From Cytobacillus oceanisediminis 2691 (GTDB lineage: Bacteria > Bacillota > Bacilli > Bacillales > Cytobacillaceae): a stretch of DNA of 64,000 bases. Positions within the stretch are counted from its first letter, which is position 1. Each line of letters begins with the position of its first letter. The stretch covers positions 254,541 to 318,540 of the forward strand of contig NZ_VEEP01000007.1 in assembly GCF_007678455.1 (NCBI RefSeq), read 5' to 3'. Below the pieces are notes generated by a model. The model did no database searches. It saw only the letters and a list, made by a program, of their open reading frames with translations, and was not told where the DNA came from. A program made the position numbers and the translations under genes. Of this stretch, positions 39,828-63,840 are shown piece after piece.

Positions 39828-39841
39828 GTTATTTCTTGCTC

Positions 39842-41177: not shown

Positions 41178-41229
41178 TTGACAAATAAAAAAGAAAGCGT
41201 ATACTAAACTTATGTTTATTAAATAAACA
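41178..41229 (+). promoter_or_regulatory. Sigma-A promoter and 17-bp palindromic operator of psuKG
   Basis: TTGACA at 41178-41183, a 16-bp spacer and TATACT at 41200-41205. Immediately downstream, TGTTTATT-A-AATAAACA at 41213-41229 is a perfect palindrome spanning the likely start of transcription, an ideal repressor site for the HTH-kinase. Confidence 0.75.
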
Positions 41230-41259
41230 AATGTTTTGAACTTGGGAAGGGGGGATAAA

Positions 41260-43138: not shown

Positions 43139-43161
43139 AATGAATTCTTAATAAACCAAAC

Positions 43162-43219
43162 ACAACTTCAATAGAGCGAAATCTATCAATCTTGGTTTCT
43201 GCTTTATTGAAGTTGTTTA
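43162..43219 (+). terminator. Terminator of psuKG
   Basis: ACAACTTCAATAGAGC pairs with GCTTTATTGAAGTTGT, with a T-rich end. Confidence 0.7.
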
Positions 43220-43359
43220 TAATATGCTTTTTAGTTATTGATGGTCAGCAAAATACCGATCAGATAAATGCAGTGGTCGGCATACTAAGGCAAAAAATCT
43301 AAACAAGCGTATTAATATAGGAAAATACTTTTAATTCGAGACTCTTTAATTGAAAGTAA

Positions 43360-43381
43360 TTAATAATAGGATTATTATTAA
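43360..43381. promoter_or_regulatory. AT-rich inverted repeat upstream of the SDR gene
   Basis: TTAATAAT-AGGATT-ATTATTAA at 43360-43381 may be an operator. Random occurrence in AT-rich DNA is possible. Confidence 0.35.
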
Positions 43382-43450
43382 ATTGTTCATTAAAGCAAAT
43401 AATACAAATTGTATATGAAGTTGTTTTTAAAATCGAAAGGAGAATTTATA

Positions 43451-44194: not shown

Positions 44195-44292
44195 TTGTAC
44201 CAAACTTATTGGCATATAATCCAATCTAGTTCAATTAAATAAATTAAGTCTGTGCACGTGCACTATTTTAAGAGCATGTGGTAAAAAAAGGT

Positions 44293-44323
44293 CAGTTAAG
44301 TTAAAACTTAACTGGCTTTTTTT
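44293..44323 (+). terminator. Rho-independent terminator
   Basis: CAGTTAAGTT pairs exactly with AACTTAACTG across AA, followed by GGCTTTTTTT. Confidence 0.85.
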
Positions 44324-44365
44324 ATGAAGGGATATAATTCATATATGCTACACGTAGGTTTCCAG

Positions 44366-44495
44366 ATGAATAAAGAGAGCTTAGGTACTCAGTTAAGATC
44401 AGAACGACTTAAAAGGAATATGTCTCAAAATCAATATGACAACCAGGACTCTAGGCCATATAGAAAATGACAAAGAAAACACAGAGGACAACTAG
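44366..44495 (+). pseudogene. XRE-type HTH regulator relic, frameshifted
   Basis: ATG 44366 starts NKESLGTQLRSERLKRNMSQ, the usual first helices of an XRE regulator. The frame ends at TGA 44470. The rest of the HTH (TLGHIENDKENTEDN) continues in another frame until TAG at 44493-44495. Helix 2-3 residues between are missing, so it carries a small deletion and frameshift. Confidence 0.55.
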
Positions 44496-44624
44496 ATTTC
44501 TAAGAGATAAATCCTGAAAAAAGAAAATACCTCTCCCCTATTGTTAGTTATAAGTTTGACTTGTTTAAAGTAAATCGTTTTTATTCCGATATACACTGTA
44601 GCCACAAACAAGGAGATGGATACA

Positions 44625-44984
44625 TTGAGTTTAGAATCACTTACAGCAAAGATAAACAAAAACGTAGAAGAAATGGAACTTGCTATCGCAAGGGTTTATA
44701 TTGAAGAAAACATTGAAATCTTAAATGAACATAGAAATATGTTAAATAAAAATGCAAGGGAGTTATTGGACTTCCTCTTGCAAATGCAGGTTCATGATGG
44801 GCAGCCATTGACAAGAAAGGATATGGCTATCATAAATACAATTAATACATACGCCAATAAGTTCGACGTAAGAGGAATAAAAATGATTGTAAAGGACCAT
44901 CCCAACTTACTGATTAGAAAAGATACACCAGCATATCTAAACGCAGATGCAAAAATTATCCTAGAAGGCATGAAAGCAATCTAA
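44625..44984 (+). CDS. Hypothetical cytoplasmic protein
   Basis: A 119-residue helical protein. TTG 44625 is preferred since AAGGAG lies 9 nt upstream, while ATG 44616 directly abuts that site. It contains a highly charged helical first half (NKNVEEMELAIARVYIEENI) and a conserved-looking block NTYANKFDVRGIKMIVKDHP. No family is recognised. The terminator at 45008 follows. The context is AT-rich accessory DNA. Confidence 0.65.
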   Translation: MSLESLTAKINKNVEEMELAIARVYIEENIEILNEHRNMLNKNARELLDFLLQMQVHDGQPLTRKDMAIINTINTYANKFDVRGIKMIVKDHPNLLIRKDTPAYLNADAKIILEGMKAI

Positions 44985-45007
44985 AAAAATCAATATACCT
45001 TACAAAG

Positions 45008-45031
45008 CCCTTCGTCTGAGAAGGGTTTTTT
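45008..45031 (+). terminator. Rho-independent terminator
   Basis: CCCTTC pairs with GAAGGG around GTCTGA or similar, followed by TTTTTT. The remaining DNA to 45325 (about 290 bp) shows nothing recognisable. Confidence 0.8.
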
Positions 45032-45325
45032 CATTTCTGTCAGAACGGGCTAATGGTGTTTAAACAATTTTTAATGGGAATTCAAAACTGGCTTCATATT
45101 TTATGAGGGTTTTTCTGGTTAAGCCAATGGAGATTATTTACTTGTAATTAAGTATTTTAGAGGGGACACAAAGTTAATGAACTAGCAAAGCAAGATAGTT
45201 ATAACGATATTCGGCTTAGCAAGCCAGATTAATGGCGGAGGTTGTTCAACTAATTATTTCTAAGTATTTACATATATGAGATTTAAAGGTTAAATTAAAT
45301 GGAATTAGATTTTTAGGAGTTTAAT

Positions 45326-45889
45326 ATGACAACTATTCTTGGAATATTGATTGTGTTTGGTTTAATAATTTTAGCAGTTAGCATTTGGAAGAAAAGTAGG
45401 TTTTTATCAATTTGTCTAACAGTTCCAGTTTTTTTTGTTTTATTCATTATTGGATACGTAGTCTTTAACTCTTGGTATCATACAACTTCTGAATCCCTGG
45501 AGATTAGTGTGGAAAGAGAAAAGCAACGATATTCTCTTTCAGGTGTTTGGGTGAAACCCATGGATAACTACAGATTCGTCACCGATTATATTGTATTTTA
45601 CGTTCCGGATAATATAAAGTTGTCCAATGTGAAACGTAACAGATACAAAGACTATAACGAGATGGATTATAAGGGATTAGAGGCAGCAGTTCACAAAAGC
45701 TTAAAAGAAATAGATGCACCTAAATTGCAACCTCAACTTTTTGATATTGAGACAACTAAGGAGTTTCGCATTTCTTTTGCTTTCCCAGAAAACATAAACC
45801 CCAGCGATATTAAAGTCTATTATGTCCATATTAGAGAAGAACCAATGGATTCGTTGGAGTTTTGGTTTAAGGAAATTGATTTAAAATAG
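45326..45889 (+). CDS. Hypothetical membrane protein
   Basis: A 187-residue protein with two N-terminal membrane segments (residues about 4-21 and 28-49) and a hydrophilic C-terminal domain of about 135 residues on the outside (SLEISVEREKQRYSLSGVWV, ending EFWFKEIDLK). ATG 45326 follows TTTAGGAG. No family is recognised. Confidence 0.7.
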   Translation: MTTILGILIVFGLIILAVSIWKKSRFLSICLTVPVFFVLFIIGYVVFNSWYHTTSESLEISVEREKQRYSLSGVWVKPMDNYRFVTDYIVFYVPDNIKLSNVKRNRYKDYNEMDYKGLEAAVHKSLKEIDAPKLQPQLFDIETTKEFRISFAFPENINPSDIKVYYVHIREEPMDSLEFWFKEIDLK

Positions 45890-46003
45890 GGTGACTTTCT
45901 ATTCAACACCGATTCTGGAAGTGCTGCCATTATGGGATCTCATATTTTTAGCTATTAAGAGGCTCTTAGTACTAGGAAGATATATTAATTAAAGAGGGAT
46001 ATA

Positions 46004-46573
46004 ATGAAAACTTATATATATTTGCTGAGGCACGGTGATTCCCCAAAAGTTGGAGATGAAAGAACAAGAGAACTAACTGAAAAAGGAGTCTCAGACTCTA
46101 AACGAATTGCTCAACTTTTAAAAAGTGAGTGCATTGATGCTGTTATCTCGAGTCCTTACAAACGTTCCATCCAAACTGTTCAACAGTTAGCAATAGAATT
46201 AGGACAGGAAATTTTAGTAATTGAAGAACTTAAAGAAAGAGTCTTTTCTGCTGAAAATTCTCGAATACCTAACAAGGCATTATACCCTTTATTAGAAAGG
46301 TCATTTGCTGATTCAAAATATGCTTTAAAGGGAGGAGAATCTAATGCTGATTGTCAGAAACGAGCAATAAAGGCTTTAAAAGAAATATTGAATACCTATA
46401 GAGGACAAAAAGTACTTTTAGGTACTCACGGGGCTATTATGACATTAATGTTAAGGTATTATGACAATAAGTACGATTTGAACTTCTTATTAAATACATC
46501 AAAACCAGATATATACAAGATGGAATTCATCGGACAGGAATTAGTAGATATTCAAAGGTTATGGACTAGTTAA
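46004..46573 (+). CDS. Histidine phosphatase family protein
   Basis: A 189-residue phosphoglycerate-mutase-like phosphatase. The phospho-accepting His is in LRHGDSPK (RHG, residues 9-11), SSPYKRSIQT provides the second Arg, EELKERVF the acid/base Glu and GTHGAI the second catalytic His. Such proteins dephosphorylate small metabolites or sugar phosphates, and the specific substrate is unknown. The start is ATG behind AGAGGGA. Confidence 0.88.
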   Translation: MKTYIYLLRHGDSPKVGDERTRELTEKGVSDSKRIAQLLKSECIDAVISSPYKRSIQTVQQLAIELGQEILVIEELKERVFSAENSRIPNKALYPLLERSFADSKYALKGGESNADCQKRAIKALKEILNTYRGQKVLLGTHGAIMTLMLRYYDNKYDLNFLLNTSKPDIYKMEFIGQELVDIQRLWTS

Positions 46574-46768
46574 AAGTTGTTAACTAACAATAGGACGATA
46601 ATATTTTGTCAGTGTTGTGTTAAATAAAGAGTTGCTGCAGCATCTCTTTTTCTTGCTCCACTAACGATTGCAGAAGAGTTAAATACGAACTTATAAATAG
46701 CTGCAACGATAAAGAATGCTTTTACTCTAATAAATTAACATTTTCGAAGTCAAAATTTCGAGGAAATA

Positions 46769-47140
46769 ATGAAACAAACCATTAAAGTCGTCGCATTTAC
46801 TTTTGGAACACTTTTAGGAATTGTAGGCGGAACCATTTACGTGCTATTTTTAATATTTTCACCTGATGAATTCAACCAAGAGAAATGGTTTAATAAGCCT
46901 TCGGAAAGAGTCGATATGATAGATAGTATGTTCTCGGAAGTGGAGTTAAAAGGAAAGACTAAAACTGAAATTATTAAACTTCTGGGCGAGGAAGAAGAAA
47001 AGGCTTATTTTAAGGAACCAAACAATCTGGTTTATTATCTAGGTGACGAGCGTGGTCTTGTGAGTATAGATAGTGAATGGCTGCTCCTTTGGTTTGATGA
47101 TAAAGACATAGTAACAGATTATGAAATTAAAACAGATTAA
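46769..47140 (+). CDS. Small membrane-anchored protein, BamE/SmpA-like fold suspected
   Basis: A 123-residue protein with one N-terminal TM (residues about 7-32). The soluble part has MIDSMFSEVELKGKTKTEII, LLGEEEEKAYF, NLVYYLGDERGLVSIDSEWL and DKDIVTDYEI. The L.GKTK.EII.LLGEP pattern followed by a Y-L-G beta hairpin resembles the BamE/SmpA-like two-helix, three-strand fold common in Bacillus lipoproteins and unknown proteins. Function unknown. Confidence 0.7.
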   Translation: MKQTIKVVAFTFGTLLGIVGGTIYVLFLIFSPDEFNQEKWFNKPSERVDMIDSMFSEVELKGKTKTEIIKLLGEEEEKAYFKEPNNLVYYLGDERGLVSIDSEWLLLWFDDKDIVTDYEIKTD

Positions 47141-47251
47141 TAAGTAATAGTGGTATTAGGCTAATCATGTTTGAATTGTTTAAACATACGGGTGCAAACT
47201 TATAACAAGAAAACAACAAAAAAGCAGTAACAAAAATGAGGAGGTATTGCA

Positions 47252-47701
47252 GTGAGCCAACACCAAATCATCATTACTCAGTATAATCCAAAGTACGCTG
47301 AACAAACAGTTAAAATGTGGCGCGATAGTAAGGAGCAGGCAATTGGTCAGAAAGAAATTCATAGCTTTGAAAATCACGTTTATTTTTTAAATACTATATT
47401 ACCTAAACAGTTTCAAATAAATTTAGCGTTAATTGACGATAAAGTAGTAGGAATGATTGCTTTTAATGAAACGGAAATAAGCCAACTTTATATTCATACA
47501 GATTATCAAGGAATGGGTATAGGTCAATCATTACTAGATAAAGTAAAAGTAATATCAAGTGGGAGATTAACATTATATACATTTGAAGTAAATGAAAATG
47601 CACAACGATTTTATGAAAAGAATGGATTTAAAATCATTGGTAGAGGACACGAAAATGAAGAAAATTTACCTGATATTCAATATGAATGGATTTCAAAATA
47701 A
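47252..47701 (+). CDS. GNAT family N-acetyltransferase
   Basis: A 149-residue acetyltransferase starting at GTG 47252 with GAGGAGG upstream. The acetyl-CoA pyrophosphate loop is YQGMGIGQSLLD (Q/R-x2-G-x-G/A), preceded by the beta-4 strand ISQLYIHTD and followed by LYTFEVNENAQRFYEKNGF, the standard end of a GNAT. Substrate unknown. Confidence 0.9.
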   Translation: MSQHQIIITQYNPKYAEQTVKMWRDSKEQAIGQKEIHSFENHVYFLNTILPKQFQINLALIDDKVVGMIAFNETEISQLYIHTDYQGMGIGQSLLDKVKVISSGRLTLYTFEVNENAQRFYEKNGFKIIGRGHENEENLPDIQYEWISK

Positions 47702-48077
47702 ACAAAAGTTAACGGAGGCTAAAGGTATCAGGCATAAAAAGCTATAGTAAAAGCAATGACTTGGTAAATGTCGGTTCTTTTTTGTGTTGGTCGAAACAAT
47801 AGCCAGGGATTGTAAATAAATACTGAAACATAAGGGTGCAATAGCAGAATAAAGCTGTCACGTCTTCCACTATTGGAAGTTTAGCAGATCAAGGAAAAGA
47901 TTCAATGTAATAAAAATCCAATTTGATTTAGCATATGAACCATGCAATTCCAAAGTTACAGGTGCTTTCCCTATCGGCTTACTACTGAAGTTATAATTAC
48001 CAGTTTCTTTTAAAAAGTCCTATTAATCTACAATAAAACATAAAATATAATAAAAATTATTAGGAAGTGATGTACAT
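47702..48077. other. Intergenic stretch with no recognised gene
   Basis: 376 bp of AT-rich sequence. I see no intact ORF with a ribosome site, no tRNA and no clear terminator, only AGGTATCAGG-like fragments of the local repeat style. Confidence 0.4.
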
Positions 48078-48734
48078 ATGAAAAAATTTGTATTACCTCT
48101 TCTAATCTTATTGATGAGTGGCCTTTATATCTTTTTTATCCCCGAAGATCCTGCATCTCTTAAAATCACTTTTAAGCTCATTCCCATGGTATTAATACTT
48201 ATTTATGCATACCTACATTGCAATACTAATCCTAAACCTGCTCAATGGATTATAATAACTGGATTGTTTATATGTATGTTGGGAGATGGCTTAATTGCAG
48301 GTTCTTTTATCTTTGGATTAGCAGCATTTTTAACAGGGCATCTATTTTACTTATTCGGATTCATTAGAACATGGAAGTTTTCTAAAACACGTTTCGCAAT
48401 GATCATTCTTATATTTGTTTACTCTTTCTTAATTAGTAACGAACTTGTAAAAGCTTTGATGGACAATGGAAACAGTAATCTCATTATTCCTGTTATTGCA
48501 TATGTTTTTGTGATTTCACTTATGGCATGGTCAGCCATTATGACAGGTAATAAATGGGCAATTGCAGGAAGTTTTTTATTTGTCCTATCCGATTCTATAT
48601 TATCTTGGAATCTGTTTGTATCTGATGTTCCACAATCAAGTTTACTCATCATGTCTACATATTACACAGCTCAGTTTTTAATTGCCCATAGCCTCGGTAG
48701 CTTATTAACCAAATCTAGAAAAGAAGGATTGTAA
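48078..48734 (+). CDS. Lysoplasmalogenase (YhhN/TMEM86 family)
   Basis: A 218-residue protein with about eight membrane helices. The family features are a short first helix ending KLIPMVLILIYAYLH, the acidic FICMLGDGLIAG (conserved LGD) and the ALFLVLSDSILSWN-like FVLSDSILSWN (conserved SD). It probably cleaves lysoplasmalogen vinyl ether bonds or related lipids in the membrane. ATG follows GGAAGTG. Confidence 0.85.
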   Translation: MKKFVLPLLILLMSGLYIFFIPEDPASLKITFKLIPMVLILIYAYLHCNTNPKPAQWIIITGLFICMLGDGLIAGSFIFGLAAFLTGHLFYLFGFIRTWKFSKTRFAMIILIFVYSFLISNELVKALMDNGNSNLIIPVIAYVFVISLMAWSAIMTGNKWAIAGSFLFVLSDSILSWNLFVSDVPQSSLLIMSTYYTAQFLIAHSLGSLLTKSRKEGL

Positions 48735-48820
48735 AGTATTCTTTCAAAAAGTTTAATAATAGGAGCTGTAAGGTTTAGAACTTTTGTGAAAGGTTGGAGT
48801 TTGTAAGTGCACCTTTAGTA

Positions 48821-53046: not shown

Positions 53047-53072
53047 TATACTAATACTACGCCTGTAAAAGT
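53047..53072 (+). promoter_or_regulatory. blaI promoter -10 and BlaI operator
   Basis: TATACT at 53047-53052 is a -10 candidate. ATACTAC-GCC-TGTAAAAGT at 53054-53072 is a half-conserved BlaI operator (consensus TACTACANNTGTAGTA). The same variant with TGTAAAAGT appears upstream of the blaI relic at 59566, so it is the autoregulatory form. Confidence 0.6.
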
Positions 53073-53084: not shown

Positions 53085-53474
53085 ATGAAGGAAATTCCAC
53101 AAATATCAGAAGCAGAATATGAAGTGATGAAGGTTATATGGAAATATGAGCCGATTTCTACTCCTAAGGTAGTGGAGAAATTTTCGAATAAGAGCGATTG
53201 GAAGCCAAATACCATTCACACGATGCTGGCACGCCTAGTTAAGAAAAAGGCTTTGCATGCAACAAAAGATGGCCGAGTGTTTATATATACATCATTGGTT
53301 GAAAAACACCAATATGTTGAGCAAAAAAGTAAATCCTTCCTGCAACAGTTTTTTGGCGGTACATTAAATTCAATGATACTAAATTTTATTGAAAATGATC
53401 AATTATCAAAAGAGGAAATATCCGAATTAAAGGAAATATTGTCTATGAGGGATAAGAAAGAAGGGGAAAAATAA
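53085..53474 (+). CDS. blaI: BlaI/MecI-family repressor
   Basis: A 129-residue winged-helix repressor. The HTH has ISEAEYEVMKVIWK and STPKVVEKFSNKSDWKPNTI, HTMLARLVKKKALHATKDGR. The C-terminal half is a helical dimer domain (SKSFLQQFFGGTLNSMILNF) where BlaR1-triggered cleavage occurs in related systems. It blocks the bla and PBP operators until beta-lactam is sensed. It overlaps the sensor gene (TAATGG), the usual blaI-blaR1 order. A decayed copy lies at 59597. Confidence 0.93.
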   Translation: MKEIPQISEAEYEVMKVIWKYEPISTPKVVEKFSNKSDWKPNTIHTMLARLVKKKALHATKDGRVFIYTSLVEKHQYVEQKSKSFLQQFFGGTLNSMILNFIENDQLSKEEISELKEILSMRDKKEGEK

Positions 53475-55270
53475 TGGATACCATGCTACTGCGGCTTTTA
53501 GTAAGTGCAATCGTGGTATCACTCCTTATTTTCATCATTCTATTAATCAAAAAGCTATTAAACAATCATATGACTGTGAAAGCACATTATCATATCTGGT
53601 TTTTTCTATGCATTCCAATCTTTACTGCATTTTTACCTTGGAATTATTTTCGTTTTGGTGAAGAAATCCGTTATTTAAAAAGCTTTCTTTTTTTTCATAG
53701 AGAAGCGCCATTGAGCAGTGAAAGGATTAATGGAGTGGGTGCCTCTCCGGCGCCAAACAGCGATATAATACATGATTTCACGGTATCGGTAAACAAGGAA
53801 GCGCCCGAATTTGTCTACCAGACAATTTTTACAGTCTGGGTGATTGGAGTGGTTCTTTCTATTGGGGCTGCTGTATATTCAAACTATCAAATCAATCAAA
53901 TCAAAAAGTCGGCTGTGGCTGTTCATAACCAAAAGCTAAATAAACTATTAGAAGAATGTAAAGAGATAGTTGGGGTGAAAAGAAACATAAAGTTGCGGGA
54001 GACCGCTCTTATTTCCTCACCGATCACGTTCGGGATTTTTCAAGCCTTTATTTTTTTACCAAGCAAAACGACAGAAACTTTTTCGTTAAATGAATTAAAA
54101 CACGTGTTTTTGCACGAACTGTACCATCAAAAAAGCAAAGATCTATTCGTGAATTATGTCATGTGGTTATTCCATATTATATATTGGTTTAACCCAGTAA
54201 TCTGGTATGCTTTAAAAAGGATTCGAATGGATCGGGAATTGGCCTGTGATGCATCCGTTTTAAACCTCTTGGATGAGAGCGGATATATTGAATATGGGTA
54301 TACCATCATTCGCTTTGCAGATAAAAAACATGATCGGCCCCTTGATCAGTTTGCTCCAGGGATAGGCGGAACAAAAAAAGAAATCAAACAAAGAATCCAG
54401 TGCATTGCAAGCTACTCTGGAGATTCTCTATTATTGAAATGGAAAAGTATGGCCATCTGTGCTGTTTTAGGAATGGTTGTGCTATTTCTTGCTCCCATCA
54501 CCACCGTGATTGCCAGCAAGGATGATGTGTATCATTTTACCGGTAAGAATGTAGTCAATGAAGATCTAAGCTCTTATTTTAAGGGTTATAAGGGCAGCTT
54601 TGTTTTATACAATCCCTCTAAAAACCAATATCTAATATATAATAGGGAGTTAAGTGAACAAAGGATTTCTCCTAATAGTACCTATAAAATATATTCTGCC
54701 TTATTTGCAATGGAATCCAATGTGATCTCTCAAAATAACAATTCAAAGGTTTGGGATGGAAAAATTAATCCCTTCCCGGAATGGAATCAAAATCAAAACT
54801 TAGCGACTGCCTTAAGTCATTCCGTAAATTGGTATTTCCAGAAAACCGATCGAGAGGTAGGGAGAAAGCAGCTGCAAAATTATTTTCAAAAGATAAAATA
54901 CGGGAATGAGGATCTTTCAGGGGATTTGGATAGTTACTGGATGGAATCTTCCCTGAAAATATCACCCATCGAACAAGCACAATTATTATATCAATTTGAT
55001 GAAAATCAATGGGGTTTTAATGTAGAAAATATCAATGCAGTAAAAAAGGCTATTTTAATAGATGGGCAAAAGAATGGGAAGTTGTATGGCAAGACGGGAA
55101 CCGGCAAGATTAATGGAAAAGATGTAAATGGCTGGTTTATTGGTTTTGTCGAAAAAGGTGATGAGCGTTATTATTTTGCCGTCAATATTCAAAATAAGAA
55201 TGGGCAGGCTCAAGGAAGTAAGGCAGCGGAGATTGCCAGACAGATCCTGCATGATGAAAAGATCTATTAA
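53474..55270 (+). CDS. blaR1: BlaR1/MecR1-family beta-lactam sensor-transducer
   Basis: A 598-residue membrane protein. Residues 1-340 contain four membrane segments and an M56 metalloprotease domain with HELYH (H214-H218) and a downstream zinc Glu in RELACDAS. Residues about 355-598 are an extracellular penicillin-binding sensor: S402-T-Y-K405, SHSVNWYF (SxN) and YGKTGTGK (KTG), where Ser402 is acylated by beta-lactams. Acylation activates the protease and leads to loss of BlaI. It is immediately after blaI and followed by a terminator at 55278. Confidence 0.95.
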   Translation: MDTMLLRLLVSAIVVSLLIFIILLIKKLLNNHMTVKAHYHIWFFLCIPIFTAFLPWNYFRFGEEIRYLKSFLFFHREAPLSSERINGVGASPAPNSDIIHDFTVSVNKEAPEFVYQTIFTVWVIGVVLSIGAAVYSNYQINQIKKSAVAVHNQKLNKLLEECKEIVGVKRNIKLRETALISSPITFGIFQAFIFLPSKTTETFSLNELKHVFLHELYHQKSKDLFVNYVMWLFHIIYWFNPVIWYALKRIRMDRELACDASVLNLLDESGYIEYGYTIIRFADKKHDRPLDQFAPGIGGTKKEIKQRIQCIASYSGDSLLLKWKSMAICAVLGMVVLFLAPITTVIASKDDVYHFTGKNVVNEDLSSYFKGYKGSFVLYNPSKNQYLIYNRELSEQRISPNSTYKIYSALFAMESNVISQNNNSKVWDGKINPFPEWNQNQNLATALSHSVNWYFQKTDREVGRKQLQNYFQKIKYGNEDLSGDLDSYWMESSLKISPIEQAQLLYQFDENQWGFNVENINAVKKAILIDGQKNGKLYGKTGTGKINGKDVNGWFIGFVEKGDERYYFAVNIQNKNGQAQGSKAAEIARQILHDEKIY

Positions 55271-55277: not shown

Positions 55278-55307
55278 CCCCAGAAAGGATTACATTCCTT
55301 TCTGGGG
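55278..55307 (+). terminator. Terminator of blaI-blaR1
   Basis: CCCCAGAAAGG pairs exactly with CCTTTCTGGGG. A related hairpin CCCCAGAAAGG/CCTTTTTGGG occurs at 60204 after the relic, showing shared ancestry. Confidence 0.8.
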
Positions 55308-55321: not shown

Positions 55322-55341
55322 AATACCACATTTGTAGTATT
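55322..55341. promoter_or_regulatory. BlaI operator upstream of the PBP relic
   Basis: AATACCACATTTGTAGTATT has two mismatches to the perfect palindrome at 60244. It lies 45 bp before the PBP relic, the same place as in the intact copy. Confidence 0.75.
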
Positions 55342-55385: not shown

Positions 55386-55960
55386 TTGAAGCAGAAAAAG
55401 CAGAAAGAAAATATATTTAGAAACCGAATTCGATAGAGAATGTATAGCCTCCTTTTCAATCACAAGTAGAAAAAATTATGCCGGAAGAGTTAATGAGTGC
55501 AATCCAAAATCCGTATACGCTTGACACTGCATTTGTTGTGGAGATGGAACTGAAAACTGCCGCATTCTTGCGATGTCAGGAAAAGTGTTTGACAGTAAGA
55601 CCAGGGAGTTTAGCGATTTTACACCAGGAACCTTTACTTATGCATTTGAACAGGGGTCCATTGTAAAAGGGGGCACCGTATTAAAAACTGGTTACCCATG
55701 GTTCCAAAGGAACTGCGAGAGGATATTTTAAAGGCGATCCCTACAATGCCGCAGGTGAAAGCGGGACCTCGGAACCCTATAAAAATGGGGTGAAGACTTG
55801 GAATCTTTCTTTTGCTGGTTATGCTCCATTCAATAATCCTGAATCCTGAGATAGCAATTGCCGTAATTGTACCGAATGCTTACCGAGATGGTTATGCTCA
55901 GCCGCACAGTGCAACTAATATCATCAGTGAGCCATTTTTAAGGTATATTTTTACCTTAAT
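55386..55960 (+). pseudogene. Relic of the class B PBP gene, two large internal deletions
   Basis: The sequence aligns along its whole length with the intact PBP at 60297-62345: TTGAAGCAGAAAAAGCAG matches the start, and later blocks match the penicillin-binding domain. About 0.9 kb is missing after the first 60 bp and about 0.55 kb is missing between positions equivalent to 61498 and 62060. The SxxK block survives (GSIVK), but the KTG box reads ESG and several frameshifts follow. It is a decayed tandem duplicate. Confidence 0.85.
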
Positions 55961-55988
55961 GGAAATCACGGCAAACTACAAAATGAGT

Positions 55989-56051
55989 TTGACAACTATT
56001 TATTACGAGTGTAGTATTAAGTTTGTAATTATTATACTACATATGTAGTAT
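55989..56051 (+). promoter_or_regulatory. Beta-lactamase promoter with two BlaI operators
   Basis: TTGACA at 55989-55994, 17-bp spacer, TAGTAT at 56012-56017. The -10 overlaps a half-conserved operator at 56001-56018 (GTAGTATT half). A perfect palindrome ATACTACATATGTAGTAT lies at 56034-56051, just downstream of the start of transcription. The layout is classic BlaI control. Confidence 0.8.
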
Positions 56052-56288: not shown

Positions 56289-57218
56289 ATGAAAAAACAT
56301 AATATTTTCAGAATGCATCATTTAATAGTTGCCCTGCTTGTGCTAGTGGTTGCCATTGTACCCCTCGCAGGGTGGTCGATGACCACCGATAACTTTTCCG
56401 ACAAGCATGGAAAGGCAGTGGAGAAAACACCAACACCACAACTACACCGTAAGTTTGCTGAACTCGAGAACAAATATGATGCCCGGCTTGGAGTCTACGC
56501 CATCGATACAGGTACAAATCGGAAAGTCTCTTATCGACCTCAAGAGCGGTTCGCATACGCATCTACTTACAAAGCTCTAGCAGCAGGTGCATTGCTGCAT
56601 CAATACTCAATTGATCAACTTGACGAGTTAGTCACATACAATAGCGAAGACATCGTTTCATACTCACCCGTTACACAACTTCACATTGATACCGGGATGA
56701 CTCTTCGGGAAGTTACTGAGGCTGCTGTGCGATATAGCGACAACACCGCTGGGAACCTTTTATTAGAGAAACTGGGAGGACCTAAAGGATTTGAAACAGC
56801 ACTAAGGAAGATTGGCGATAATATTACCCAAGTTGATCGCTACGAGACGGAATTGAACTCAGCTGTTCCTGGAGATGCACGTGACACAAGCACAGCAAAA
56901 GCACTTGCTACCAGCCTACAGGCTTTTGCAGTAAGCGACTTGATTCCAACAGAAAAACGTACTATCCTGACAGATTGGATGCGGGGTAACGCCACCGGGG
57001 ATGCATTAATTCGTGCTGGTGCACCAACTGGCTGGGAAGTTGCTGACAAGAGCGGGGCAGGAAGCTATGGAACGCGGAATGACATTGCGGTTGTTTGGCC
57101 GCCGAATAGAGCTCCCATCGTTATTGCAGTTCTATCCAGCCGCGAAACACAGAATGCGACCTATGACAATGCGCTGATCGCTGAAGCTGCCAAAGTCGCA
57201 CTTAACTCTTTGAAGTGA
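56289..57218 (+). CDS. Class A beta-lactamase
   Basis: A 309-residue secreted serine beta-lactamase. Signal peptide is at residues 1-31. Active-site motifs are S92-T-Y-K95 (SxxK), S150-D-N152 (SDN), E186-T-E-L-N190 (the deacylating Glu of the omega loop) and KSG in DKSGAGSYG. KSG replaces the commonest KTG, which is also seen in some Bacillus and actinobacterial class A enzymes. It hydrolyses penicillins. No lipobox is present. The upstream BlaI operators and nearby blaI-blaR1 indicate inducible expression. G+C looks somewhat higher than in its neighbours. Confidence 0.95.
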   Translation: MKKHNIFRMHHLIVALLVLVVAIVPLAGWSMTTDNFSDKHGKAVEKTPTPQLHRKFAELENKYDARLGVYAIDTGTNRKVSYRPQERFAYASTYKALAAGALLHQYSIDQLDELVTYNSEDIVSYSPVTQLHIDTGMTLREVTEAAVRYSDNTAGNLLLEKLGGPKGFETALRKIGDNITQVDRYETELNSAVPGDARDTSTAKALATSLQAFAVSDLIPTEKRTILTDWMRGNATGDALIRAGAPTGWEVADKSGAGSYGTRNDIAVVWPPNRAPIVIAVLSSRETQNATYDNALIAEAAKVALNSLK

Positions 57219-57352
57219 ACGGATATTTAAATTTACCTATCATAATTCTCAATTACATCATTGCCTAGGCTTAACAGTCATCCTGTGCAATGAATAGTAA
57301 GCTTAGCATGTAAAGACTTATATTTTTTCTATAGGCTAAAATCAACAATATA

Positions 57353-57372
57353 GGTCTCCCGAATGGGAGGCC
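57353..57372 (+). terminator. Terminator after the beta-lactamase gene
   Basis: GGTCTCCC pairs with GGGAGGCC around GAAT, followed by ATTTATTTAT. It separates bla from the following transpeptidase gene. Confidence 0.65.
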
Positions 57373-57441
57373 ATTTATTTATACAGCATTAACAAGACTC
57401 TTTACTGGAGGACCAAATGTATAGTAAAGGAGAGCTATAGA

Positions 57442-59478
57442 ATGAATAGTAGAGTCGAAAGAAAAAAGAGGAAAATCAATCCTTATTACCTCTTAATATT
57501 CCTCATTTTAGCTGGGATTGGGGGATTTAGTTTATTCCAAATCATGGACAAAAAAGGTCACAATGAAGTTCAGGAAGTAGCTAATACTTTTATTCAACTA
57601 TTAGAAGACAAAGAATATGAAAAATTAGGGGATGTACTTGAAAAACAATCCTACACTTCTTTGGATTATACTTTGGAAGAAGTCATAGATAAATATGATC
57701 GTATATTTAACGGAATCAATATTAAGAATATACATGCTTCCAAAGTTGAATTAGAGAAAGTCAAAAACCACGGGTATGAGTTATCTTATAAATTAAGCTT
57801 TACAACTCCTTTAGGAACAGTAGAGAATTTGAACTATCATACAAAAATAGAAAAAACAGAGGACCATTATAGGGTGAAGTGGGGTCCTCACTTGATATTT
57901 CCTGGAATGGAAGGAAAAGATAAAGTGGCTTTTAACTCTCTAGAAGCAGAACGAGGAGAGATCAAAGATCATTTAGGGAACGGATTGGCGGTAAACGAAG
58001 AGTTTAAATGGGCAGGGGTAGTACCGAAAGAATTAAATCAAGGCGATGACAAAGACGATACGCTACAAAGGATTAGCCAACAGTTCGGTATGCCAATAGA
58101 GGAAATTCATCAAAAACTAAATCAAAGCTGGGTAAAAGAGGATCTATTTGTTCCCTTAAAAATAATTGAAGTAGATAAAGAAGAAGTCATACCTGGAGTG
58201 GTCTATCAAAATACAAAACTTCGTTATTACCCGCTTAAGGAAGCTGCTGCTCATTTAATTGGTTACATTGGAAAAGTGACAAAGGAAGATTTGGATAAAC
58301 ATCCAACTTTAGCAGAAGGAGAGATGATTGGAAGAGCTGGATTAGAAAAGGCCTTTGATCAACGACTGCGGGGGAAAGATGGAGGAGAAATCCTGATTGT
58401 TGATGAACAGGGGAATAAAAAGCAAGAAATTCTAAAGGTAGAAAAGTTGGACGGTAAAGATATTCAGTTGACCATTGATTCTTATATCCAATTGGAGGCC
58501 TTTACACATCTAAACGGAAAAGCTGGTTCTACTGTCGTTATGGACCCTAAAAAGGGAGGGCTTTATGCCGTTGTAAGTTCTCCTTCCTATGATCCTAATA
58601 AAATGGTTCAAGGTATATCTCAGCAGGAATATGATCAGTATGCAAAGGATGATAACAAACCCTTTATTTCAAGATTTGCAGTTGGGTATGCGCCTGGCTC
58701 TACCTTTAAAACGATTACCGCTAGCATTGGTCTTGATGCCAAAGTGACCTACCCAGATAAGCTACGAAACATAAAGGAATTAAGCTGGAAGAAGGATGGA
58801 ACCTGGGGAGGTTATTCCGTCACCCGAGTATCCGATGTGCAAAATGTGGATATGAGAAAAGCGTTAATTTATTCCGATAATATTTATTTTGCACAAGAGG
58901 CCCTGGAAATAGGAGAAAAAGTGTATAGAAATGGGTTGAATAAGTTTATTTTTGGGGAAGATTTAGAGCTGCCAATCGTCATGAACGCAGCCCAAATCTC
59001 TAAGCAAAATGCATTTGATTCGGAAATCCTGTTGGCAGATACTGCATACGGACAAGGAGAATTATTGATTACACCCATTCAACAGGCCGTCATGTATTCG
59101 GTTTTTCAAAACGAGGGAAACTTGGTTTATCCGAGATTGCTAGATGATAAAAGTGAACCAAAAACCAAATCAGCGATCACCAGTTCAACGGCAAATGAAA
59201 TGAAAAACAGTTTAACAACGGTGGTAAGTGACCCAAAAGGGACGGCCCACCTTCTATACAACCCAAAATATAAGCTGGCAGCCAAGACCGGAACTGCCGA
59301 GCTAAAAATGAAACAAGGTGAAAAGGGGAATGAAAATAGTTTTTTACTTGCTTTTGAAGCAGAACAGAATTCTTTTCTTCTTCTTTCACTCGTCGAACAT
59401 TATACACCAGGTAGTTCAGCCACCCAGCTGAACCGATCATTTATAGAGCAACTATATTCATATTTACAAATGAGGTGA
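57442..59478 (+). CDS. PBP2a/PbpC-like low-affinity penicillin-binding protein
   Basis: A 678-residue class B transpeptidase with one N-terminal TM. An NTF2-like MecA_N domain spans residues about 38-150 (EVQEVANTFIQLLEDKEY), then the dimerisation domain and the catalytic domain from residue about 330. Active-site motifs are S420-T-F-K423, S478-D-N480 and K615-T-G617. This domain order is that of MecA of staphylococci and PbpC (PBP3) of B. subtilis. In B. subtilis PbpC is low-affinity and not BlaI-controlled. No canonical BlaI operator is seen just upstream; a TTTACT/AGTAAA pair at 57401-57428 may matter. Confidence 0.93.
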   Translation: MNSRVERKKRKINPYYLLIFLILAGIGGFSLFQIMDKKGHNEVQEVANTFIQLLEDKEYEKLGDVLEKQSYTSLDYTLEEVIDKYDRIFNGINIKNIHASKVELEKVKNHGYELSYKLSFTTPLGTVENLNYHTKIEKTEDHYRVKWGPHLIFPGMEGKDKVAFNSLEAERGEIKDHLGNGLAVNEEFKWAGVVPKELNQGDDKDDTLQRISQQFGMPIEEIHQKLNQSWVKEDLFVPLKIIEVDKEEVIPGVVYQNTKLRYYPLKEAAAHLIGYIGKVTKEDLDKHPTLAEGEMIGRAGLEKAFDQRLRGKDGGEILIVDEQGNKKQEILKVEKLDGKDIQLTIDSYIQLEAFTHLNGKAGSTVVMDPKKGGLYAVVSSPSYDPNKMVQGISQQEYDQYAKDDNKPFISRFAVGYAPGSTFKTITASIGLDAKVTYPDKLRNIKELSWKKDGTWGGYSVTRVSDVQNVDMRKALIYSDNIYFAQEALEIGEKVYRNGLNKFIFGEDLELPIVMNAAQISKQNAFDSEILLADTAYGQGELLITPIQQAVMYSVFQNEGNLVYPRLLDDKSEPKTKSAITSSTANEMKNSLTTVVSDPKGTAHLLYNPKYKLAAKTGTAELKMKQGEKGNENSFLLAFEAEQNSFLLLSLVEHYTPGSSATQLNRSFIEQLYSYLQMR

Positions 59479-59565: not shown

Positions 59566-59584
59566 ATACTACAGATGTAAAAGT
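59566..59584. promoter_or_regulatory. BlaI operator upstream of the blaI-blaR1 relic
   Basis: ATACTAC-AGA-TGTAAAAGT matches the variant in front of intact blaI at 53054. Confidence 0.65.
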
Positions 59585-59596: not shown

Positions 59597-60195
59597 ATGA
59601 GAGAGATTCCACAATTATCAAAATCAGAATATGGAGTGATGAAAGTTGTATGGAAATATGAGCCCATCTCGACTCCTGAGGTACTTTGCTCCAATCACTA
59701 CCGTTGAAGATCTAAGCTCTTTTTTTAAAGGGCTACTAGGGAAGATTGGTTTATATAATTCCTCTAACAAACAATATCAAATTTATAATCGAGAGATGAG
59801 TGAACAGAGGATATCTCCTAATAGCACCTTTAAAATATTTTCTGCCTTATTTGCATTGGGATCTAATGTAATTTCCACGTATAACAATGAACAGGTTTGG
59901 GATTGATTAAATTAATCCCTATTCAGAATGGCATCAAAATTTAGCGACTGTCTTGAGCCGTTCCATTAATTGGTATTTCCAAAATAACGATCAGGAGGTA
60001 GCGAGAAAGCAGCTACAAGATTATTTTCACAAAATAAAATACGGGAATGCGGATCTTTCAGGGAATTTGGATAGTTACTGGATAGAATCTTCTTTAAAAA
60101 TATCACCAATTGAGCAAGTCCAATTATTATAACAATTAGAAGAAAAAAGGCAGCCGAGATTGCCAAGCAGATCCTGCATCATAAAAAGATTTATA
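59597..60195 (+). pseudogene. Relic of blaI-blaR1, fused by deletion
   Basis: From ATG 59597 the first 28 codons are a diverged blaI N-terminus (MREIPQLSKSEYGVMKVVWK). The sequence then jumps to the end of the BlaR1 membrane part and its sensor domain, losing about 1.3 kb. A second gap of about 55 bp removes the linker before VEDLSSFF, and a third of about 0.2 kb removes the region before the C-terminus. The frame ends early (TGA at 59705-59707 in the blaI frame). The sensor Ser-Thr-Phe-Lys is still recognisable (NSTFKIFSALF). It is dead as a gene. Confidence 0.85.
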
Positions 60196-60203: not shown

Positions 60204-60238
60204 CCCCAGAAAGGAATTACCTTTTTGGGACTTTTTTT
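60204..60238 (+). terminator. Terminator behind the relic
   Basis: CCCCAGAAAGG pairs with CCTTTTTGGG and TTTTTTT follows. It is the diverged twin of the hairpin at 55278. Confidence 0.75.
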
Positions 60239-60243
60239 ACAAT

Positions 60244-60263
60244 AATACTACAATTGTAGTATT
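60244..60263. promoter_or_regulatory. Perfect BlaI operator upstream of the PBP gene
   Basis: AATACTACAATTGTAGTATT is a perfect 20-bp palindrome with the BlaI/MecI core ACTACA/TGTAGT. TAGTAT at 60258-60263 can serve as the -10, so binding would block transcription of the PBP 34 bp downstream. Confidence 0.85.
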
Positions 60264-60296
60264 TAATTCTTTCCAGAATGAAAGGACTGATACTTT

Positions 60297-62345
60297 TTGA
60301 AGCAGAAAAGGCAGAAAGAAAATATAGTGAAAAACCTAATCCAATTGAGACTGAATGGTCTCTTTTTCATGGTCTTTGTTCTGTTTTCTATCTTGATTCT
60401 CCGCCTTGGCTTTATCCAAATTATTAAAGGGGAAGCCTATTCGGCTCAAGCAAAGGAGACAGATGTGACAACAGTCAGCTATTCAGTTCCGCGTGGAAGA
60501 ATATATGATACGAATAATAAGTTAGTAGTCTACAATATTCCGGAAAAGGCAATTGTCTATACACCGCCGAAATATCCACAGCCGGGCGAATTGCTTGAAC
60601 TGGCCAAAAAGTTAACTACCTTTCTGGTCATGACTGATAGAGAGATCAATAAAGTAACCGATCGGGATTTGAAAGATATATGGCTGTTGGCACATAACAA
60701 TGGGACGGATTTAATCACAAAGAAGGAGGAGAAATTAAATGAACAGAAAAAGCTGAATGACAAGGATTTATACCAATTAAAATTAAACCGCATTACAGAA
60801 AGCGATCTCCAGGCAATGGACAAAAACCTTGCAGCCATCTACCGGAAACTTTCTTCCGCCATCGCTTTAACTCCAACGATGATTAAAAATGAAAATGTAA
60901 CAGAGGAAGAATATGCGAAGGTCAGTGAAAATCTGGAAGATTTGCCGGGTGTGGATGTCTCGACCGATTGGAAGAGGGGCCGTACCTACGGGGAAACGTT
61001 TTGGAATATGCTTGGGGAAGTAACGAGTGAAGATGAAGGCCTTCCGGCTGATAAGGTAGAATACTATACGTCTAAAGGTTACGAACTGAATGATCGCGTC
61101 GGGAAAAGCTATATCGAAGAACTTTATGATAGTGTGTTGCAAGGCCAAAAGGAAAAAGTGGAAACGGTGACAGATACTAATGGAAATGTGGTGAGTACAG
61201 AGACTGTATCAGAAGGGAAGAGCGGCAAGGATATTGTTCTGACCATTGATATTGATTTCCAAGCTCAAGTGGAAAAAATTATCCAGGAAGAGTTAATCAG
61301 TGCAATACAAAAGCCGCATACGGATACGCTTGATACTGCATTTGTTGTGGCGATTGAACCGAAAACTGGCCGCATACTTGCAATGTCAGGAAATGTGTTT
61401 GACAGGCAGTCCAGGGAGTTTACTGATTTTACACCGGGAACCTTCACTTATGCATTTGAACAGGGGTCCGTTGTAAAAGGGGCCACCGTATTAACCGGCT
61501 ACCAAACGGGTATCAGGGATTTCGGGGAAATCGAGCTGGATGAAGTCATGCGATTTAAAGGTTCTCCTAAAACCTTTTCCTCATACCTAGTGATGAACAG
61601 AATTAATGATTTAGAGGCATTAGAGCGTTCATCAAACGTTTATATGTGGAAAACAGCGATAGAAATTATGGGTGGCAAGTATATCCCAAATGGCACATTG
61701 AATATCAATCCGCAAAAAATTGAAACCATCCGCTATTATTTCAACCAATTTGGTTTGGGCATTCCGACCAAAATTGGTTTTGATAATGAAACGGCTGGAA
61801 TTAAAGGAACCAATACAAGCACCTACTTTCAAATTGCCATCGGACAACTAGATACCTATACACCCATGCAAGTTGCCCAGTATATTACAACGATTGCTAA
61901 TGGAGGATACCGGATGAAGCCTCAATTGGTGAAGGAGATTCGTGAACCCAATAAGAATGGCGATGAACCGGGCAACCTCATCGATGAAATCGAACCAATG
62001 GTGCTGAATCAGGTGGATATGAGTGAGGAGATGCTAAAGCGGGTTCAACAAGGTTTTTGGCTGGTTACCCATGGTCCCAAAGGAACCGCGAGAGGATATT
62101 TTAAAGGCGAACCCTACAATGCCGCAGGTAAAACCGGGACCTCTGAATCCTATAAAAATGGGGTGAAGACGTGGAATCTTTCTTTTGCTGGTTATGCTCC
62201 ATTCAATAATCCTGAGATAGCAATTGCCGTAATTGTACCCAATGCTTACCGAGATGGTTATGCCCAGCCGCACAGTGCAGCTAATATCATCAGTCAGCGG
62301 GTTTTTCGGGCATATTTTGACCTTAAAGAAAAGGACAACAAATGA
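60297..62345 (+). CDS. Class B penicillin-binding protein under BlaI-type control
   Basis: A 682-residue transpeptidase with one TM (residues about 18-40), a dimerisation domain starting VSYSVPRGRIYDTNNKLVVY and the penicillin-binding domain from residue about 330. Motifs are S391-V-V-K394, S445-S-N447 and K612-T-G614. It resembles PbpH/PbpA/PBP2B-type elongation or division enzymes of Bacillus, of normal length (about 680-720). TTG 60297 is the start with AAAGGA 10 nt upstream. The BlaI palindrome just upstream marks it as beta-lactam-induced, so it is likely a low-affinity replacement PBP. A decayed copy lies at 55386-55960. Confidence 0.92.
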   Translation: MKQKRQKENIVKNLIQLRLNGLFFMVFVLFSILILRLGFIQIIKGEAYSAQAKETDVTTVSYSVPRGRIYDTNNKLVVYNIPEKAIVYTPPKYPQPGELLELAKKLTTFLVMTDREINKVTDRDLKDIWLLAHNNGTDLITKKEEKLNEQKKLNDKDLYQLKLNRITESDLQAMDKNLAAIYRKLSSAIALTPTMIKNENVTEEEYAKVSENLEDLPGVDVSTDWKRGRTYGETFWNMLGEVTSEDEGLPADKVEYYTSKGYELNDRVGKSYIEELYDSVLQGQKEKVETVTDTNGNVVSTETVSEGKSGKDIVLTIDIDFQAQVEKIIQEELISAIQKPHTDTLDTAFVVAIEPKTGRILAMSGNVFDRQSREFTDFTPGTFTYAFEQGSVVKGATVLTGYQTGIRDFGEIELDEVMRFKGSPKTFSSYLVMNRINDLEALERSSNVYMWKTAIEIMGGKYIPNGTLNINPQKIETIRYYFNQFGLGIPTKIGFDNETAGIKGTNTSTYFQIAIGQLDTYTPMQVAQYITTIANGGYRMKPQLVKEIREPNKNGDEPGNLIDEIEPMVLNQVDMSEEMLKRVQQGFWLVTHGPKGTARGYFKGEPYNAAGKTGTSESYKNGVKTWNLSFAGYAPFNNPEIAIAVIVPNAYRDGYAQPHSAANIISQRVFRAYFDLKEKDNK

Positions 62346-62349
62346 AGTG

Positions 62350-62386
62350 ACCTCCAAAGGTTAGATTTCACTCTAACTTTTGGGGT
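62350..62386 (+). terminator. Hairpin after the PBP gene
   Basis: ACCTCCAAAGGTTAGA pairs with TCTAACTTTTGGGGT with small mismatches. The T-run is absent, so it is a weak terminator at best. Confidence 0.5.
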
Positions 62387-62454
62387 GCAGTACAAAACCA
62401 CAAAATGATATTGATATCTTTTTATCGCACATGTAATCAAATTAGAGAAAAGAG

Positions 62455-63840
62455 AAAAATCCCCCTTGCATTTCGGGGTGAATGACGATAGCAGCATAGT
62501 ACCAATGAAGTTGGGTAATGCCGATGGAGGGAAGGATAGCTACCAGTTATCACCCTTACTAGGACACATTTACTACACACAGAGGTAGGAATAATAAATG
62601 GAAACAAAACTACTAAGGATAGCAGAATTAGCAAAATTTGAGCCTAAAATGATGTTTACATCTCTTGCACATTTATTGAATGAGCAATCTGTAACTCAGT
62701 GTCATCATGAATTGCCTAATAAAAAGGCCACTGGTATCAACGGAACGACAAAAGAACAATACAATGACAACCTGGAAGAAAACATAGAGGATTAAGTAAG
62801 TAGGCTTAAAAGCAAAAGATACCGTCCTGTTCCAGTAAGACGAATGTACATCCCAAAGCTCAACTCAAACAAGATGAGACCACTGGGAATACCGGAACAT
62901 GAAGATAAAATTGTTCAAAAGGGCAATACGAAAATACTAAATGCCATCTATGAAAATGACTTTCTAGACTGCTCATTTTGGTTCCGTCCAAATAGAAACT
63001 GTCACGATGCCCTGAAAATACTGAATCAATATATTGAGAAGAGAGCAGTAAGCTATGTAGTGGATGTAGATATTAAAGGATTCTTTGATAACGTTGACCA
63101 CAAATGGATGATGGAATTCTTGAAACTCCGAATCACTGACCCTAACCTACTGAGAATAATTAGCAGGTTTCTTAAAGGTGGATACATGGAGGAAGGTAAG
63201 AAATACAAGACAGACAATGGCACATCGCAAGGTGGAGTGATATCTCCGATATTAGCAGATGTCTAACTCCATTAGGTTCTTGATCTATGGTTTGAAAAAG
63301 TGGTTAGGAAGCAATGTAAAGGCCAGGCATTTATAGTAAGGTACACAGATGATTTTGTTGTTGTTTTCAGAGTAAAAGTGAAGCCCAGCAATTCTTCCAT
63401 TCATTAAAAGCGAGATTAAGAAGTTTAACCTGGAAATAGCCGAGGATAAAACGAAAATTATTCCTTTCGGCCGGTTTGCGGAAAAGAATGCAAAACGTGA
63501 CGGGACTGGCAAACCAGATACTTTTGATTTCCTCGAGTTTACCCATAATTGTGGCATAAGTAAACAAGGTAATTTCCGAGTAAAGCGGAAAACCAGCAGG
63601 AGGAAAGTTCAAGGTAAACTTAAAGAAACGAAAGAATGGCTGAAGAATAATAGGAATAAAGATATTCATATGATTTTGGATAGATTTAAACGCTCACTAA
63701 TAGGTTATTACAACTATTATTGAATCACTGATAACACTCAAACTGTTAACAACTTTAAAGAGAAAATCCAGAGCTTACTATTTAAATGGCTAAACAGAAG
63801 AAGTCAAAGGAAATCATTTACTTGAGATAAATTCAGGCTC
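62455..63840 (+). mobile_element. Decayed group II intron, 5' truncated
   Basis: GTGAATGACGATAGCAGCAT at about 62479 is typical of the late domain I/IV leader of bacterial group II introns, followed by CACACAGAGGTAGG before the RT start codon. The 5' end (GTGCG...) is not seen upstream of 62455, and a domain V sequence is not evident after the RT, so both ends are incomplete. The internal RT gene is broken. It lies in a flank that matches the sequence upstream of bla at 56060. Confidence 0.6.
62598..63826 (+). pseudogene. Group II intron reverse transcriptase/maturase, multiply interrupted
   Basis: Starts METKLLRIAELAKFEPKMMF. RT blocks are recognisable across stops: RPLGIPEHEDKIVQ (RT-1/2), FWFRPNRNCHDAL, VVDVDIKGFFDNVDHKWM (RT-3), NGTSQGGVISPILADV (RT-4), and IVRYTDDFVVVF (the YxDD catalytic box). 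In-frame stops are at 62793-62795 and at 63264-63266, with another two codons later, and a frameshift follows near 63390. The C-terminal maturase part (EIAEDKTKIIPFGRFA, RKTSRRKVQGKLKE) is in a different frame with more stops. It is not functional. Confidence 0.85.

Follow-up and report, generated by a model that had tools for sequence, protein, structure and literature searches.

The textbook wall enzyme under BlaI/MecI control is PBP2a, and the locus described here raises the question of whether an elongation-type penicillin-binding protein (PBP) can stand in the same place. The window, a 64,000-nucleotide stretch of the Cytobacillus oceanisediminis 2691 genome (contig NZ_VEEP01000007.1, positions 254,541 to 318,540), carries an intact PBP gene that we call pbpX (60297-62345); this name and pbp5L (57442-59478), for a second PBP gene upstream, were coined in the present analysis. 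We consider it probable that pbpX encodes an accessory class B PBP of the elongation type (PbpA/PbpH/PBP2b class) and belongs to a BlaI-BlaR1 regulon, in a beta-lactam response island that varies among strains. Support at the sequence level consists of an intact gene, an exact operator, a hairpin, recurrence in relatives, purifying selection and the presence of two housekeeping PbpA/PbpH-like genes besides. The features of the island are as follows.

53055-53070, no strand: operator-like site before blaI, 3 mismatches
53085-53474, + strand: blaI, repressor; no other blaI match in the genome is strong
53474-55270, + strand: blaR1, sensor/protease (NF000326, 715 bits, cut-off 400)
55278-55307, + strand: intrinsic terminator-like hairpin separating blaR1 from the dead pbpX copy
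55324-55339, no strand: operator before the dead pbpX copy, 1 mismatch
55386-55963, + strand: dead pbpX copy, large parts missing
55989-56017, + strand: bla promoter TTGACA-17-TAGTAT, its -10 inside an operator
56001-56016 (2 mismatches) and 56035-56050 (exact), no strand: operator pair before bla
56289-57218, + strand: class A beta-lactamase, bla (NF012167, 453 bits, cut-off 427)
57353-57372, + strand: terminator-like hairpin between bla and pbp5L
57442-59478, + strand: pbp5L, MecA_N PBP of the Enterococcus PBP4(5) family (NF051842, 953.6 bits, cut-off 700)
59567-59582, no strand: operator before the dead blaI copy, 2 mismatches
59597-60190, + strand: dead blaI-blaR1 copy, 81-82% nucleotide identity to the live genes
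60205-60229, + strand: terminator-like hairpin preceding the pbpX operator, conserved for the most part across an alignment of 27 upstream regions
60244-60263, no strand: pbpX operator AATACTACAATTGTAGTATT, a perfect palindromic 20-mer of BlaI/MecI type
60297-62345, + strand: pbpX, intact elongation-type class B PBP, 682 aa, TTG start

A BlaI/MecI-type operator in front of pbpX

The first-pass annotation of this DNA had reported a perfect BlaI operator before the PBP gene, overlapping a TAGTAT that lies 34 bp from a TTG start, and all three observations were confirmed. The palindrome ends 33 nt 5' of the pbpX TTG, while TAGTAT occupies 60257-60262, leaving 34 nt between it and the TTG at 60297. 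Counted by eye, the operator (60245-60262) agrees with the mec/bla consensus RNATTACAWNTGTARKNT (PMC5341023) at 14 of its 15 fixed positions. Its exact 16-mer core, TACTACAATTGTAGTA, is present in one copy in the 4.9-Mb genome.

Sites of this kind are concentrated in the window, where the pattern TACTACANNTGTAGTA with up to 3 mismatches occurs 9 times versus 1.8 expected, a count reached in 0 of 100 shuffles. Six of these nine sites are intergenic and fall between 53055 and 60261 (7.2 kb), a seventh (61334, 3 mismatches) is inside pbpX, and the remaining two are elsewhere in the window. Across the whole genome, allowing up to 2 mismatches gives no enrichment (17 sites versus 65 for the reversed control pattern), and only exact matches stand out (2 versus 0 for the control); since the pattern at 2 mismatches is rarer than its reversed control, we place weight only on near-exact sites. 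No site with up to 2 mismatches was found upstream of any of the 12 other transpeptidase genes that the genome has outside the island, the single one near them being at L008, on the downstream side.

At pbpX a mec/bla operator thus overlies the promoter region, although the promoter itself is only putative. The -10-like reading of TAGTAT survives in part: the overlap with the operator is real and a -10 is plausible, but no conserved -35 was found 17 nt before it in the pbpX upstream regions. Because TAGTAT lies within the palindrome, it is not independent evidence of a promoter. A candidate -35, TTTACA, was picked out by eye 15 nt from TAGTAT, and a weak alternative promoter, TTGGGA-18-TACAAT (60225-60254), shares sequence with the terminator stem; this region has no excess of promoter-like matches (29 versus 30.8 in shuffles). 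Given the terminator-like hairpin between the regulator genes and pbpX, the latter is probably its own transcription unit. The operator at pbpX is no worse than that at bla, where the promoter is clear: the geometry TTGAC(A/T)-17-TAGTAT with the -10 in an operator was found at 17 of 17 loci examined, a comparison that left out L066, where the operators are more than 500 bp from bla.

PbpX is an additional PBP of the elongation type

PbpX has the PBP_dimer and Transpeptidase domains, both above their Pfam cut-offs, and the active-site motifs SVVK, SSN and KTG, all ordinary-looking. Its TTG start is backed by relatives, which have a similar Shine-Dalgarno sequence and, in most cases, a start at the same codon position (ATG or GTG in L074-L076). 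The nearest solved chains are named 'Penicillin-binding protein 3' (3vsk, 436 bits; 8c5b, 425 bits) and 'Penicillin-binding protein 2B' (2waf, 362 bits), which we take to be the staphylococcal and pneumococcal proteins, respectively. With SxxK, SxN and KTG intact, and with this closest kin, PbpX can be assigned to the elongation-type class B enzymes (PbpA/PbpH/PBP2b), and from its family would be predicted to act with RodA in building the side wall. An initial label of 'PbpH/PBP2B-like' accordingly needs narrowing: it is apt for the elongation type (PbpA/PbpH-like, PBP2b, staphylococcal PBP3) but not in the sense of the division PBP2B of Bacillus subtilis. The NCBIfam model strep_PBP2B, made for streptococci, scores 497 bits, below its cut-off of 975. 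Membership of the mecA family was rejected, as PbpX has no MecA_N domain and the five matching Mec models reach 27-35 bits versus cut-offs of 750-1525.

The genome has two further intact PbpA/PbpH-like genes (L004, L008), and pbpX is an extra one. In a tree of 51 proteins, computed under LG+G4 with no mixture model and carrying a long-branch warning, the 18 pbpX rows included (of 31; L161 was removed, being the pbpX already present as L075) form a single clade with a support of 100/100. It falls within a larger clade of 27 proteins (100/100), the others being elongation-type PBPs from a different family, f22, and lies apart from the genome's own two PbpA/PbpH-like proteins. The simplest reading of the tree is an origin of pbpX in family f22, followed by transfer. 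Six f22 stretches examined contain no blaI or blaR1, and one of them, L131, has a single 2-mismatch operator site 4.7 kb upstream. Another of the six, L127, found in an other-family search that kept only matches at E <= 1e-180 and not among the tree rows, carries a stop-broken copy 69% identical to pbpX, with no regulator or operator beside it.

Compared with 10 relatives, the window pbpX gives dN/dS values of 0.107-0.178 (the pair L078-L079 was unused, its dS being saturated), ratios that indicate purifying selection. Seven positions (278, 321, 364, 379, 407, 511 and 526) consistently separate the 31 pbpX proteins from 31 comparison PBPs, and most pbpX rows shown, L078 excepted, have KTGTS instead of KTGTA; with respect to affinity these differences are leads only. 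No low-affinity signature was recognised in the active-site motifs of PbpX against the same 31 comparison PBPs. AlphaFold, run on PbpX with 14 close homologues, gave a mean pLDDT of 40.6; the structure alignment left out L096, whose stretch does not translate openly, as well as L093 and L097.

These ordinary motifs, together with the finding that only seven positions differ from the comparison PBPs at the thresholds used, lend themselves to another explanation, which we regard as possible but less likely than not. PbpX would be controlled by BlaI and have a normal beta-lactam affinity, being made fresh to replace acylated enzyme or to match wall repair while the beta-lactamase clears the drug. 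It is less easy to see, on that account, why a diverged subgroup was used rather than induction of a resident gene. The gene content of the islands also bears on this explanation.

The operator, the regulators and pbpX recur together

A protein search of 193 family genomes yielded, among the matches listed, 31 near-full-length pbpX copies in 30 genomes (66-100% identity), separated by a gap from the next best match at 52%. Two of the 31 are incomplete, L070 ending at residue 616 and L073 being frame-broken near residue 68. All 31 have blaR1 within 6.5 kb, which in the window means a dead copy adjacent and a live one 5 kb off. Upstream of pbpX the operator is present with 0 mismatches in 25 copies, 1 mismatch in two and 2 mismatches in two; in the last two (L079, L080, order bla>pbpX>pbp5L) a 1-mismatch operator stands before bla. 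The core of a 0-1-mismatch operator ends 35-70 nt before the pbpX start in 27 of the 31. Summed over the 193 genomes, exact sites number 54 versus 6 for the reversed control.

Of the 30 genomes with pbpX, 25 have an exact operator, versus 9 of the 163 lacking a near-full-length copy (Fisher p 3e-19, a value that is overstated in that the genomes are related and not independent). From each of these nine one site was fetched, plus a second in G125. Three belong to blaI>blaR1>pbpX>bla islands with a decayed pbpX (L108, L109, L114), L111 has blaI-blaR1 and bla with no pbpX, L113 (in G125) is a lone bla at an exact operator, and L117 is a frame-broken pbpX in the order pbp5L>blaI>blaR1>pbpX. At L110 and L112 (exact operator at about 4010), none of the five island genes lies within the 9 kb fetched, and these sites are either chance occurrences or other BlaI targets. 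Such sites are what can be said for a palindrome that merely happens to precede an ordinary PBP gene, an explanation to which we give almost no credence: the enrichment in the window, the fact that 27 of 31 orthologues retain the site at a distance of 35-70 nt from their start and the Fisher p of 3e-19 led us to reject it. The claim made at first pass, that BlaI drives the PBP gene, is well supported by comparison, inasmuch as operator, neighbourhood and regulators all recur, and BlaI control of pbpX is likely.

The other two sites fetched, L115 and L116 (G166 and G167, genus g20), show an elongation-type PBP distinct from pbpX (44-45% identity) that is flanked by two operators and adjoins pbp5L-blaI-blaR1, which would be a second recruitment under the BlaI switch.

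Three layouts account for most of the loci. In the commonest (T1), found at 17 of 31 loci, two of which are truncated by the end of the contig ahead of blaI, the order is blaI>blaR1>pbpX>bla. The second (T2; L067, L071-L076) reads pbp5L>blaI>blaR1>pbpX, and in the third (T3; L077-L080, genus g22) blaI-blaR1 is divergent from (bla>)pbpX>pbp5L, with distant versions of blaI, blaR1 and pbp5L, the last at 36-38%. Two BlaI-BlaR1 lineages thus accompany pbpX, the one in L077-L080 being 35-42% identical. Several operator-like sites form a close array in L077 and L078. At L069 the island is limited to blaI>blaR1>pbpX, and at L070 a truncated pbpX is accompanied by pieces of pbp5L and bla.

The position of bla directly after pbpX in the 17 loci of the first layout would suit a PbpX of normal affinity sheltered by the beta-lactamase, as would the loss of pbpX from several islands that retain bla. 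Six loci (L067, L071, L072, L074-L076) argue the other way, having pbpX and a pbp5L (70-84% to the window's) with no bla in the stretch fetched. Altogether, pbpX is dead or missing although blaI, blaR1 and bla survive in L108, L109, L111, L114, L128 and the first copy of the window, and must therefore be dispensable.

Neobacillus records with pbpX include novalis, bataviensis (two copies), mesonae, rhizophilus, citreus, niacini, kokaensis and vireti. Another copy (71.7%) is on pMEGANia, a 1.44-Mb plasmid of Niallia taxi, and that of Peribacillus cavernae (L096) is broken into pieces.

A probable composite of two related islands

The first-pass annotation mentioned neither the dead gene copies nor the five further operator-like sites, and did not mention the apparent composite nature of the region. 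The order in the window is blaI-blaR1-(dead pbpX)-bla, then pbp5L-(dead blaI-blaR1)-pbpX, leaving one live copy of each island gene, and it looks like the product of two related islands, one of layout T1 followed by one of layout T2, that merged and were reciprocally pruned. The dead blaI-blaR1 copy consists of the first ~30 codons of blaI followed by broken pieces of the blaR1 sensor, and the two pieces of the dead pbpX are 79% and 86% identical in nucleotides to 62061-62476 and 61256-61494, respectively. Dead and live copies in the window share 76-86% DNA identity, a figure that says little by itself since dead genes drift faster. The dead blaR1 piece is 88% identical to L051 versus 82% to the window's live blaR1, and the 3' piece of the dead pbpX is 86% identical to L063 versus 79% to the live pbpX (the stretches compared differ in extent). 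Because the dead blaR1 is nearer to L051 than to the live gene beside it, and the live pbpX is itself 92% identical to L051, the sequences favour two acquisitions over a local duplication. A simple tandem duplication was also considered and is not favoured, as the dead pieces are nearer to other genomes and the gene orders of the two halves fit two known layouts.

The island is absent from G075, a genome of the same species, which aligns piecewise with the window across 37162-48764 and then once more from 64409 on, with ~18 kb of other DNA between its two matching regions. Among the matches listed for 20 other genomes of the genus examined, pbpX appears only in G070.

The genome encodes what appears to be a functional cognate pair of regulators. 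BlaR1 has the motifs HELYH (214), STYK (402) and KTG (540), and N100-F101 of BlaI aligns with the LNF of MecI, so that BlaR1 retains the motifs of sensor and protease, and BlaI the Asn-Phe position. The only other blaI-type match in the genome scores 25.1 bits, barely above the cut-off of 22.6. Before blaI, most relatives have TACTACAGTTGTAAAA or TACTACAGATGTAAAA (2 mismatches), and the window's site is poorer, at 3. As the blaI-blaR1 adjacent to pbpX is dead, and the live pair 5 kb off is the genome's only strong BlaI match, it follows that any control of pbpX would act in trans.

The second PBP, pbp5L, passes the curated cut-off of NF051842 and belongs to the Enterococcus PBP4(5) family; the solved chains closest to it carry the names PBP4 and (low affinity) PBP5. 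It has no operator in the window, and its orthologues in L067, L071 and L072 keep theirs upstream. Given this operator loss (57218-57442) and the position behind a terminator-like hairpin, pbp5L may be constitutive or silent in this genome. As pbp5L would be expected to be the leading low-affinity partner of PbpX, this weighs against our reading of the island.

A similar fate could be proposed for pbpX, namely that it is effectively unregulated or silent in this strain, with the operator a relic and the gene on its way out. The lack of a conserved -35, the dead regulators just upstream, the lost operator of neighbouring pbp5L and the decay of pbpX elsewhere would all agree with that, but it sits badly with a dN/dS of 0.11-0.18, an exact palindrome and a live blaI-blaR1 pair 5 kb away, and we judge it unlikely.

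Directly after the island, a broken reverse-transcriptase gene (RVT_1) occupies 62598-63266 and onward, presumably of the group II intron type, and a stretch 91% identical to that region is found in L059, near another pbpX island. Rfam gave no match at gathering score within the window. A role in anti-phage defence was set aside, PADLOC giving no match for four proteins.

Proposed mechanism and relation to known systems

By analogy with BlaI/MecI systems, a BlaI dimer (53085-53474) bound at 60244-60263 would block transcription when no drug is present. A beta-lactam would then acylate BlaR1 (53474-55270) and lead to the inactivation of BlaI, upon which pbpX and bla, and in relatives pbp5L too, would be expressed. 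PbpX could in that case supply transpeptidation for elongation at a time when the drug has acylated the housekeeping enzymes, the benefit being either a lower affinity, as suggested at first pass, or simply fresh, extra enzyme behind the beta-lactamase. The company that pbpX keeps, a PBP4(5)-type PBP in layout T2 (a distant relative of it in T3) and a beta-lactamase in T1, points to a role in protection, and the repeated decay of the gene implies that this role is conditional. More tentatively, and with more doubt than confidence, one may picture a complete spare wall kit run by BlaI-BlaR1, in which PbpX is a drug-tolerant stand-in for elongation, pbp5L (PBP4(5)/PBP3 type) a stand-in for division, and the beta-lactamase the third component. 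It would be a mec-like arrangement of environmental Bacillaceae, its elongation PBP drawn from another family, with recruitment of such a PBP under one and the same operator at least twice (pbpX and the PBP of L115/L116).

The proteins whose solved chains are nearest to PbpX, staphylococcal PBP3 and pneumococcal PBP2b, are to our knowledge not BlaI targets. Among the matches listed for the open-access literature (subscription papers lying outside this search), no report was found of an elongation-type PBP as a direct BlaI target. Relative to the known BlaI/MecI-controlled PBP systems, the novelty suggested by these sequences is an elongation PBP in the place of PBP2a.

A close parallel is the Macrococcus mecB complex, blaZm-mecB-mecR1m-mecIm, which unites PBP, beta-lactamase and sensor/repressor in one unit (PMC5341023), as does blaI-blaR1-pbpX-bla. 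There are two differences: the regulated PBP of mecB is a PBP2a, homologous to mecA, whereas pbpX encodes an elongation PBP with no MecA_N, and in the commonest pbpX layout, unlike the mecB complex, all genes point one way. In the blaP-blaI-blaR1 divergon of Bacillus licheniformis, BlaI has several operators and BlaR1 is the sensor, and binding of a beta-lactam by BlaR1 leads to the loss of BlaI from its operators; the targets given in the sections of this paper at hand are only the beta-lactamase and the regulators, with no PBP, in contrast to the pbpX island (PMC3305447).

Inducible class B PBPs are known from Bacillus thuringiensis, where, according to PMC8791391, the sigma-P regulon includes pbpM, pbpN, dacC and four bla genes, and deletion of pbpM sensitises the cells. 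It resembles the pbpX island in bringing class B PBPs, there beta-lactam-inducible, together with beta-lactamases, but sigma-P is an ECF sigma factor with the sensor PbpP, unlike BlaI-BlaR1. The first-pass view that control of such a PBP is not described in this group hence needs qualifying, as no counter-example turned up among the matches listed for the open-access literature but sigma-P does induce class B PBPs in B. thuringiensis. PBP3 (pbpC) of B. subtilis, a MecA_N class B enzyme with poor oxacillin binding that is able to take over the catalytic role of division PBP2B, is of the same broad type as pbp5L and not of the class of pbpX, and the part of PMC5656894 available to us makes no link to BlaI. 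In Listeria, drugs that target PBPs induce extra RodA and FtsW genes (PMC6686043).

If PbpX is inducible and drug-tolerant, protection of side-wall growth would be a second solution to the same problem, in environmental genera (Neobacillus, Niallia and kin). The islands display the assembly, merger and loss of a beta-lactamase, a PBP4(5)-type PBP and an elongation PBP around one sensor, and the kept and decayed copies of pbpX form a natural series for testing the value of inducible PBPs.

Two other records deserve mention. On a Peribacillus asahii plasmid (L148, 3998-9776), a PBP2 stands beside a MurE-like ligase, a rod shape-determining protein and a two-component system, an arrangement suggestive of a further set of spare wall genes that is controlled differently. 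The 22-kb record NZ_CP013227.1, filed as a Staphylococcus aureus plasmid, contains in two pieces a PBP 39.8% identical to pbpX, and is possibly a chromosomal piece carrying its own PBP3.
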